A DNA stretch of 64,000 nt from positions 124,001 to 188,000 of the forward strand of contig NZ_SSGF01000018.1 of NCBI RefSeq assembly GCF_008015755.1, in the 5' to 3' direction. Below the pieces are notes generated by a model. It did no database searches, was not told the origin of the DNA, and saw only the letters and a program-made list of their open reading frames with translations. Position 1 is the stretch's first letter. Each line of letters begins with the position of its first letter. A program made the position numbers and the translations under genes. Shown piece by piece: positions 30,473 through 32,737 of this stretch. The stretch is from Methylophilus sp. (GTDB lineage: Bacteria > Pseudomonadota > Gammaproteobacteria > Burkholderiales > Methylophilaceae).

Positions 30473-32737
30473 TTAAAACCCGATTTGTTCCAGTACACCA
30501 TCCAAGTGCTCAGCACTGCCTTCAGGCGCAGTCACTTGCTGGCTGCCAGAAGCTGCTTCAGCACCAGAAGCAGCCGTTTCACGCACAATCAACCAACGCT
30601 GAGTCGAAACATCCAACTGCAACTCCAAACGCTTAGACATCTCATCACGGTAGGATTTTGCAGCGTATTTTTGCGTGAATGTCACCACCGCCGCGTCTCC
30701 TGTACGAGAAACATTGAGGTTGCTGATATCCAGGCTGATTTTACCCTGCTGTGGCGACAGGCGTTTTTTACGCTGTGCTTCCCAGGCGGCACGGTTAGGC
30801 AAGCCCTCGGGTACAAAAGCAGGAGAATAGGCTGCAAAATAGGCATTCACATTCTTGCTACGCCAAGCTTGTGCCCACGCCTGCACCGCTGATTCAACGC
30901 CGCTGTCAGCAGCGACGGCGGTTGACGCTACGGACGATTCCGTTGTCACCACAGGCTCAGAGACGCTCACTTTCGGCAGATCCGCCACAGACGCGGCAGC
31001 AGCAGCCAATGGCGTGACACGCTCGCGCGTGATTAACCAGCGTTTCTGTGAGGAGTCATAGCGCATTTCCAAGGTTTTCGTCAGCGCATCCTTGTAAGAT
31101 TTAGCTGCGTACTTCTGTTCAAAATGCACAGTGGCTATCGCAGCCGTGCCTTCACGCTGTACTTGAATATTATTCAACTCCAGCGTAATCGCCCCCTGAC
31201 CCGCGGATAAGCGCTGCTTACGCTGTGCTTCCCAGGCTTTTTTGGATGGCAAGCCTTCTGGCACAAAATCAGGCGCGTAGGCGGCCAGATAGTTTTTAAT
31301 ATCCTTGCTACGCCAGGCTTGCGCCCAGGCAGCTACTGCCTGATTAATTTCGCCATCACCAGCCGGCACTTCTTGTGCAACCACGGCGGCTGGCTCAACG
31401 GCTTGAGCCGCTGCTTGCGGGGCTTTAGGCGCCAGCGTAGCCGCAGGCGGAACAACCGGCGCTACTTCCTTCACAATAGATTTCACTGGCGGCGGCGGCA
31501 GTTCCGGCTCAGGTTCAGGCTCTGGCAGTTGCTCGGCCACAAAGGTCGGTGATGACTCAGCCGCATGCTCTGCTTTAGGGGCAACGCCCTTCTCAGTCAC
31601 TTGATGCGCTTCAGCATCTGTCACCGGCGCGTTGGCTTCAGCCATATTACCTTTGACCATCTCCTGTTCGCTTGGCACCACTGGCGCCACATACTCCCCT
31701 TCAGGGATATAGGGAATGACCTCATCATCCTCAACCGCAGCCAAGGTTGCGGCTTTGGGCTTTGGCGGGGGTGGCGATGCTGGTTTGGCGGTTGGCGCCG
31801 CCGATTTTTTGGTTTGGGCTGGCTTCACCGCCGCCGCTGTCACGGCGGCTGCCGCAACCACAGGGGCCGTGATCTTACTCGCAGCAGGCGCCGCTTTGGC
31901 GACTGGCGGCAACACAGGCTCTGGCGCAGCAACCTCAGCTGGTGAAGCTGCGGGCGCTGGTTGAAACACCGGTGGCGGCTCTACCGTATCGGCAATTTGC
32001 GCAGCCATTTCTTTGTCATTGACGGCATGCGCCTTGGCTTCAGTGACCTGATGAGCGGCCGCATCGGTGTTACCCTTGGCCATCTCTTGTGGCGTAGGTG
32101 CTGCAACATACTCGCCTTCAGGGATATAGGGCACGACTTCTTCAGCCGCGACTGGTGTGCTCTTTGCCGCAGCCGCTTGCGCGTTTGCTGGCTCAGTTGT
32201 ATTAGATTGAGCGGTATTAGATGGCGTTACTTTAGCTTCTGTCGCCGCCACTGCAGCCGCAGCAGGCGCGACATCGCTTGCTTTGTCGCTAGCAACACCG
32301 CCATCGCCTCTCCAGAATTTCAGCTTATCGGTCCACGGCTGCTCATTGTCAGCGTCTATTTTTTTCTGTGGCGCTTCTGCAATGGTTTTAATGTCAGGAT
32401 TTTCCGCAGACGGAATCACATCACCACGCACGGACACCAGGCTATCCTTGTCAAAATCAAGAATCACTCGGCGTTTTTCAATCACGGCGCCTTGTTTGCG
32501 CAACTCGTAAAAATAATCCCAGCGATTGTCGCGGAAGCTATCTACAATCAGCGGAGTGCCCATAATGTAGCGCACTTGCGAACGAGTCATGCCAGGACGC
32601 AGCTGCAACAACATTTTAGAAGTGACTACATTCCCTTGCTGCACTTCCATCTTGAACGGCTTGAGCGAAGGAAGTTTGGCACCACATCCACTCTCCAGAG
32701 ATGCGACAGCCAACACAAATAAGATAGAATTACGCAT
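30473..32737 (-). CDS. BamE-like lipoprotein fused to a long Ala/Pro linker and two NTF2-like domains
   Basis: A 754-residue protein. Residues 1-18 are a lipoprotein-type signal ending SLESGC (C18; Glu at -3 is unusual). Residues 22-110 are a BamE/SmpA domain (QLRPGMTRSQVRYIMGTP, WDYFYELR, DFDKD), part of outer-membrane beta-barrel assembly. A 350-residue low-complexity Ala/Pro/Glu linker holds two PYIPEGEYVA repeats (about 203 and 342). Two homologous NTF2/SnoaL-like domains follow (464-574 and 614-722), each starting AVxAWAQAWRSK and containing FVPEGLP and YAAKSY, like the C-terminal domain of Cds6-type L,D-transpeptidase proteins. BamE is normally 110-200 residues. Start ATG 32737 is preferred over a TTG at 32800. 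Divergent from fur. Confidence 0.8.
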   Translation of the reverse strand: MRNSILFVLAVASLESGCGAKLPSLKPFKMEVQQGNVVTSKMLLQLRPGMTRSQVRYIMGTPLIVDSFRDNRWDYFYELRKQGAVIEKRRVILDFDKDSLVSVRGDVIPSAENPDIKTIAEAPQKKIDADNEQPWTDKLKFWRGDGGVASDKASDVAPAAAAVAATEAKVTPSNTAQSNTTEPANAQAAAAKSTPVAAEEVVPYIPEGEYVAAPTPQEMAKGNTDAAAHQVTEAKAHAVNDKEMAAQIADTVEPPPVFQPAPAASPAEVAAPEPVLPPVAKAAPAASKITAPVVAAAAVTAAAVKPAQTKKSAAPTAKPASPPPPKPKAATLAAVEDDEVIPYIPEGEYVAPVVPSEQEMVKGNMAEANAPVTDAEAHQVTEKGVAPKAEHAAESSPTFVAEQLPEPEPEPELPPPPVKSIVKEVAPVVPPAATLAPKAPQAAAQAVEPAAVVAQEVPAGDGEINQAVAAWAQAWRSKDIKNYLAAYAPDFVPEGLPSKKAWEAQRKQRLSAGQGAITLELNNIQVQREGTAAIATVHFEQKYAAKSYKDALTKTLEMRYDSSQKRWLITRERVTPLAAAAASVADLPKVSVSEPVVTTESSVASTAVAADSGVESAVQAWAQAWRSKNVNAYFAAYSPAFVPEGLPNRAAWEAQRKKRLSPQQGKISLDISNLNVSRTGDAAVVTFTQKYAAKSYRDEMSKRLELQLDVSTQRWLIVRETAASGAEAASGSQQVTAPEGSAEHLDGVLEQIGF
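30572..31348 (-). repeat. tandem duplicated NTF2-like domain inside the BamE fusion
   Basis: The coding segments 31016-31348 and 30572-30898 encode two copies of a domain of about 110 residues, more than half identical by eye, with shared blocks WAQAWRSK, FVPEGLP, AWEAQRK, LSxxQG, KYAAKSY and RWLI. This is an intragenic duplication separated by a linker of about 40 residues. Confidence 0.85.

Follow-up and report, generated by a model that had tools for sequence, protein, structure and literature searches.

Introduction

How barrel assembly and the cell wall are coordinated is still an open question, and links between BAM and the wall are already known by two means, direct binding in Escherichia coli and Pal in Caulobacter. 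In E. coli, BamE touches BamD and POTRA-5 of BamA (PMC13067283), and the BAM subunits, BamE included, are reported to bind tetrapeptide peptidoglycan; according to the same report, mature, tetrapeptide-rich peptidoglycan suppresses the folding activity of BAM and pentapeptide-rich peptidoglycan has little effect (PMC9242858). In Caulobacter, Pal is reported as the anchor of BAM to the wall (PMC2797634). Peptidoglycan contact has also been described for the NTF2 domain of Campylobacter Pgp2. Sacculi pull down this protein and its K307A variant just weakly, NMR places peptidoglycan fragments in the pocket of the NTF2 domain, and among the pocket substitutions Y233A, K257A and K307A equal a deletion and F242A and E324Q are intermediate (PMC8038945). 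The NTF2 domain of Csd6 has been proposed to bind pseudaminic acid (PMC8038945), and that of Bdellovibrio Bd1075 directs the location of Bd1075 on the cell (PMC8938487).

Here we analyzed a protein encoded in a window of 64,000 nucleotides, which is the whole stretch of Methylophilus sp. DNA under study, and which carries a BamE domain and two NTF2 domains of the Csd6/Pgp2 type. No description of such a BamE was found in the openly licensed literature. We think it probable, although well short of certain, that this protein is the true BamE of the organism and has a built-in peptidoglycan grip, which would make it a covalent tether of BAM to the wall and might also let it sense how mature the wall is; we infer its docking in BAM, its binding to peptidoglycan and the resulting effect.

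The sole BamE found in the genome carries two NTF2-like domains

The bamE gene occupies positions 30473..32737 of the minus strand (ORF with ATG at 32737) and encodes 754 amino acids, with a divergent fur-type gene upstream and dapB downstream. The BamE domain (residues 35–103; 32429..32635, minus strand) matched Pfam PF04355 with an E-value of 4.7e-25 and 87.6 bits against a cut-off of 23.2. It contains nearly all of the 25 columns that are invariant among 43 family sequences and is followed by a WTDKLKFW motif (residues 135–142; 32312..32335, minus strand). Of the 143 intact BamEs of the family, 136 have a loose form of this motif (FW) at this place. In the PDB, the N-terminal part of the protein aligned best with true BamEs, and the full-length AlphaFold2 model matched Neisseria gonorrhoeae BamE (5wam, 3.8e-6) at rank 16, behind NTF2-fold matches. 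The score against the NCBIfam equivalog PRK11548.1 (42.3 bits) was under the cut-off of 93, so the protein is filed only under the Pfam family and outside that equivalog. By profile search it is the sole PF04355 match at E<=0.001 in its own genome, a statement limited by the assembly (2.75 Mb, 94% complete), and no second bamE was found elsewhere in this assembly. BamC (PF06804) is encoded there as well.

A putative signal peptide was read from the sequence (residues 1–17; 32687..32737, minus strand) before Cys18, with an unusual Glu at position -3 of the lipobox. This position holds Glu in 13, Gln in 1 and Gly in 1 of the 15 Methylophilus BamEs of the type with two NTF2 copies (counting G079, which is cut); in the rest of the family members read it is occupied by Cys, Ser, Thr or a hydrophobic residue. 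Cys is so common at -3 that a strict PROSITE-style lipobox pattern also failed for 75 of the 135 other family BamEs, and for that reason we report only the charged residue at this position. The Glu, Gln or Gly at -3 may, judging from the sequence, alter lipidation.

The NTF2 domains keep the pocket residues of Pgp2

The profile Cds6_C (PF24125) matched the protein with an E-value of 5.2e-32 and 110.9 bits against a cut-off of 27, in two stretches of which residues 464–572 scored best, and each NTF2 copy separately exceeded the cut-off in the genome profile search. NTF2 domain 1 comprises residues 464–572 (31022..31348, minus strand) and NTF2 domain 2 residues 615–721 (30575..30895, minus strand); the matches of the genome profile search span 31022-31348 and 30578-30895. 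In the full-length AlphaFold2 model, the BamE domain and both NTF2 domains are folded, the NTF2 cores having a pLDDT of about 90 or more, and domain 1 modelled alone reached 92.3. The first-pass annotation had read the protein as an intact BamE domain followed by a long linker and two NTF2 domains, and this architecture was borne out: PF04355 and Cds6 were both found above their cut-offs, the linker has about 355 residues, and the C-terminal repeats do have an NTF2 fold that is modelled with confidence.

Foldseek placed Bd1075, Pgp2 and Csd6 at ranks 1–5 and 7 when domain 1 alone was compared with the PDB, rank 6 being 3f7s, an uncharacterized NTF2-like protein. A profile of 18 NTF2 domains from BamE, TPR and YkuD proteins (A1) had PDB matches at E<=0.01 only with Bd1075, Csd6 and Pgp2 (wild type and K307A). 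With the full-length model, tandem NTF2-fold epoxide hydrolases came first (rmsd of about 15), then Bd1075, with Pgp2, BamE 5wam and Csd6 lower; that epoxide hydrolases head these matches indicates that the NTF2 fold is a general one. The YkuD catalytic domain had no Pfam match in the 754-amino acid protein.

We then compared the pocket residues, taking the Pgp2 numbering from the profile alignment and verifying the offset with T220, W225, Y233, F242 and the K307A entry. Pgp2 residues Y233, F242, K257, K307 and E324 align with Y483, F491, R506, K554 and E572 of domain 1, so that four are identical and K257 is replaced by Arg; the corresponding residues of domain 2 are Y633, F641, R656, K702 and E720. 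Among the NTF2 copies of Methylophilaceae BamEs, the Tyr and Phe are present in 48/48 and the Arg, Lys and Glu in 47/48, with one gap, and the copies from BamEs of other families agree in 6/6, bar one Phe-to-Tyr change. Because the A1 alignment shows the same Tyr, Phe, Lys and Glu without exception in its TPR-NTF2 and YkuD-NTF2 paralogues, their conservation may partly reflect the fold. In a second alignment, the pocket Tyr is Phe or Leu in 4 of 14 YkuD copies and Phe in 3 of 4 copies of a protein encoded next to bamE in genome G402 (see below). The NTF2-like control 3f7s aligned over the first 72 residues only, with an E-value of 0.1, and is weak as a control for the pocket.

NTF2 domains are an insertion in a minority of long family BamEs

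BamE is present in 178 of 187 Methylophilaceae genomes, of which 150 were read and 28 left out of the sample. Seven of the 150 loci are cut by contig ends and were omitted from the tail counts, leaving 143 intact proteins. All 143 are long (at least 225 amino acids), and no separate short bamE was seen in the 150 genomes. NTF2 domains are absent from 110 of the intact proteins (225–432 amino acids); 19 have one (285–535 amino acids) and 14 have two (704–926 amino acids), the latter all from Methylophilus. The one-copy forms come from Methylophilus (5), g16 (9), g6 (1) and g18 (4 of 48), and one Methylophilus genome (G077) encodes a BamE without NTF2. The protein had first been singled out for its length as well as for its domains; since a long BamE is the family rule, the odd feature is the NTF2 insertion and not the length. 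The 110 proteins without NTF2 also imply that the putative grip is dispensable in most relatives.

A disordered linker and a conserved C-terminal end flank the NTF2 domains

The linker (residues 106–460; 31358..32422, minus strand) is rich in Ala, Pro and Glu and predicted to be disordered: in the AlphaFold2 model, built with 43 family sequences, the pLDDT is below 50 over most of residues 110–455, and it is low over the last 25 or so residues of the protein. Two exact copies of PYIPEGEYVA (residues 203–212 and 342–351) overlap a first repeat VPYIPEGEY (residues 202–210; 32108..32134, minus strand) and a second repeat IPYIPEGEY (residues 341–349; 31691..31717, minus strand), the latter in a conserved stretch that continues to VTEKG. 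The motif sits inside longer conserved stretches (DEVIPYIPEGEY...EMVKGN...VTEKG). It occurs twice in 8 proteins and once in 6, which are 13 of the 14 intact proteins with two NTF2 copies plus that of G079, which is cut; the two-copy protein of G062 has no exact match. Among the family BamEs read, it was seen only in Methylophilus proteins of the two-copy type, and the suggestion that these repeats are binding sites is unsupported.

The protein ends in LEQIGF-COOH (residues 749–754; 30476..30493, minus strand). An IGF terminus is shared by 140 of the 143 intact family BamEs, and 119 also fit the longer pattern [FYIL]-[FYIL]-[EDKN]-x-x-L-[EKR]-x-IGF. Because this conserved end follows the NTF2 domains, these lie between the BamE domain and that end; they had been described as the C-terminal part of the protein, which is right in that they come after the linker and wrong for the very end. 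In family BamE tails the conserved end reads GYFERMLEKIGF and variants of it, and the two-copy proteins keep little of it beyond the final residues. Of 12 genomes tested for the DNA pattern of LE[KQ]IGF-stop, 11 have it just once, where bamE ends, and G141 has it twice. Tails ending in GFFxRM-like peptides (GFFGRMLEKIGF-like) were seen in 8 of 57 uncut BamEs outside the family, so such an end either predates the Methylophilaceae or recurs. When the GYFERMLEKIGF and KFW motifs were tested as amphipathic helices, their hydrophobic moments did not exceed those of shuffled sequences (11–72% of which were as high), and for this reason we do not claim membrane binding for these motifs.

Two further tail types were observed. 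At loci L161 and L128 (G119 and G148, g18), the BamEs have N-termini of the g18 type and Methylophilus-like NTF2 domains and ends (SEHLDGVIEKIGF, IEHFDGVIEKIGF), and a tail swap between genera is possible on this sequence pattern. In family f36, the BamE tails at L235, L237 and L220 contain several RSxGERFMRLxGFGKK-like motif repeats.

BamE-NTF2 fusions recur in other families of the order

Two other proteins of the genome contain Cds6_C, a 415-amino acid YkuD-NTF2 protein and a 362-amino acid TPR-NTF2 protein, which are encoded by adjacent genes. A TPR-NTF2 gene beside a YkuD-NTF2 gene recurs in the Methylophilaceae and in other families of the order (L200:4261-6699 and several of L262–L276). 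In an NTF2-domain tree rooted on the YkuD type, a branch with 100/100 support parts the BamE copies and the TPR type from the YkuD type, the BamE copies of the Methylophilaceae cluster together (99/90), and two TPR copies (G272 and G382) are placed among BamE copies. Hence, the first-pass designation of a domain from L,D-transpeptidase proteins is correct in that this is the Csd6/Pgp2-type accessory domain, and needs amending because the BamE copies group with the TPR-NTF2 paralogue and not with the YkuD type.

These relationships bear on a reading in which the ligand of the NTF2 domains is a protein, for instance the TPR-NTF2 protein or the YkuD LD-carboxypeptidase, so that BamE would recruit a wall enzyme. 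The adjacency of the two paralogue genes, here and in other families, and the closeness of the BamE copies to the TPR type speak for it, as does the fact that NTF2-like folds frequently dimerize. The conserved residues, however, include the pocket that in Pgp2 binds peptidoglycan, and we regard partner binding as unlikely.

To place the fusion in the order, we surveyed 300 genomes (9 from the Methylophilaceae), finding BamE in 292 and Cds6_C in 165. Among 58 BamE loci read outside the family, five encode BamE-NTF2 fusions: G460 (with two copies) and G431 in f25, G411 in f43, and G237 and G281 in f3. Two of the five were checked, those of G460 and G411, and both are also supported by Pfam. Thirty of the loci were chosen by BamE score and gave no fusion; the other 28 (one of them, G188, cut at its end) were picked for long frames, for numerous Cds6_C matches or for belonging to f25, and gave all five, which makes five a lower bound and not a rate. 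In G402, also in f25, bamE is plain and encodes 118 amino acids. Upstream of it and in the same orientation is an ORF of 852 amino acids (L268:4496-7054), at a distance of 26 bp, or of about 59 bp should the second ATG serve as start codon; the ORF product begins like a secreted protein and has four Cds6_C domains linked by long KAEAAK-type stretches. This ORF stands between a recN-like gene and bamE, and a dapB-like gene is present too (both by resemblance). Fusions in several families together with this adjacency indicate a working link between BamE and NTF2 domains.

The NTF2 domains of BamE are under purifying selection

On a tree of 97 BamE domains (97 of the 150 genomes), the presence of NTF2 takes 4 changes, at least 3 of them required by supported branches. 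The NTF2 trees indicate that copies 1 and 2 arose within Methylophilus, and a single clade of all BamE NTF2 copies was not rejected (p-AU 0.137). With both trees based on about 100 columns, the sequences are compatible with an ancient gain followed by losses and with transfer between lineages. In the pairs that allowed its calculation, dN/dS was 0.00–0.03 for the BamE domain, 0.03–0.12 for the NTF2 domains and 0.10–0.18 for the linker; several pairs were saturated. Between G063 and G068, the closest pair, the NTF2 domains (0.10 and 0.12) do not differ from the linker (0.10). By these ratios, the NTF2 domains are under purifying selection.

A second reading makes the NTF2 domains passengers in a disordered tail that was already long, kept for stability or a weak, general affinity for the wall, with no role in barrel assembly. 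It gains from the family rule of long tails without NTF2 (110/143) and from the patchy distribution, with its 3–4 changes on the tree. The low dN/dS of both copies and their conserved pockets tell against it, as do the duplication within Methylophilus and the recurrence of the domain, which is fused to BamE in other families too and in one genome encoded next to bamE, and we judge it improbable.

Far less credible still is a TpgA-like adaptor, that is, a BamE-fold protein tying one particular outer-membrane protein to the wall. In TpgA, an N-terminal domain is joined to one that binds peptidoglycan (PMC13082670), and phmmer weakly finds the TpgA N-domain (9vnj, 8.4e-4). Nevertheless, the protein scores 14.9 bits against a TpgA cut-off of 350, has no OmpA-like domain, aligns best with true BamEs and is the sole PF04355 protein found, and a TpgA-like identity was rejected. 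An assembly or sequencing fusion deserves practically no credence: no evidence for it was found, no separate short bamE was seen in the 150 family genomes read, and it is refuted by the same architecture in 14 Methylophilus genomes, this one included, five of which are listed as one-contig assemblies.

Discussion

We favor the reading of the 754-amino acid protein as a BamE with a built-in hold on the wall. The BamE domain would dock in BAM beside BamA and BamD, as in E. coli, and the flexible linker would extend from it to the sacculus, where the conserved pockets of the two NTF2 domains would grip stem peptides of the peptidoglycan. The fusion would then make the contact between BAM and the wall permanent, or act as a sensor that places or tunes barrel assembly. 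More tentatively, and by analogy, it may be a hard-wired sensor of wall maturity, whose NTF2 domains read stem peptides and gate or place OMP insertion; if so, it would be a genetic counterpart of the control that peptidoglycan exerts over BAM in E. coli.

The physical link between barrel assembly and peptidoglycan that the first-pass annotation suggested is thus favored by the sole BamE found, the NTF2 fold, the LD-carboxypeptidases as nearest structures and the retained pocket, while the binding itself is deduced from these likenesses. Among the points against a tether, BAM of E. coli needs no NTF2 domain to bind peptidoglycan, the NTF2 domain of Csd6 has pseudaminic acid as its proposed ligand, and dN/dS shows constraint on the linker as well, which in the closest pair is no weaker than that on the NTF2 domains.

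The architecture has a practical side. The contact between BAM and the wall in E. coli is spread over ordinary subunits and should be hard to cut without harming BAM, whereas in Methylophilus the putative contact is made by a domain that is separable, sits on a subunit outside the BAM core and has known pocket residues. Methylophilus uses methanol, and its type species has been cultured. Whether BAM must hold the wall could be tested directly by deletion of the NTF2 domains or by point mutations in them, and the relatives with and without the domain are natural comparisons.

Compared with BamE (SmpA/OmlA), the protein is alike in its intact BamE domain, in being the sole copy found and in having BamEs as best N-terminal PDB matches, and differs by its long disordered tail, IGF C-terminus, two NTF2 domains and unusual lipobox. 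It shares with Csd6, Pgp2 and Bd1075 the accessory NTF2 domain, for which these are the closest structures by both profile and fold and whose pocket is kept; these proteins have an LD-carboxypeptidase (YkuD) domain, whereas the Methylophilus BamE has none and bears the NTF2 domain in two copies. The wall-binding domain of TpgA is OmpA-like. Acinetobacter TpgA resembles the Methylophilus protein in joining a weakly BamE-like N-domain to a peptidoglycan-binding domain, and is reported to serve a trimeric autotransporter (PMC13082670); it is not the BamE of its cell. Caulobacter Pal is, as reported, likewise a peptidoglycan anchor for BAM (PMC2797634), as a separate OmpA-domain lipoprotein, whereas in Methylophilus the proposed anchor is an NTF2 fold inside BamE itself. 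E. coli BAM, finally, shares the contact with tetrapeptide-rich peptidoglycan, BamE included (PMC9242858); there the ordinary subunits bind, with no dedicated domain, unlike the proposed role of the NTF2 fusion of Methylophilus.
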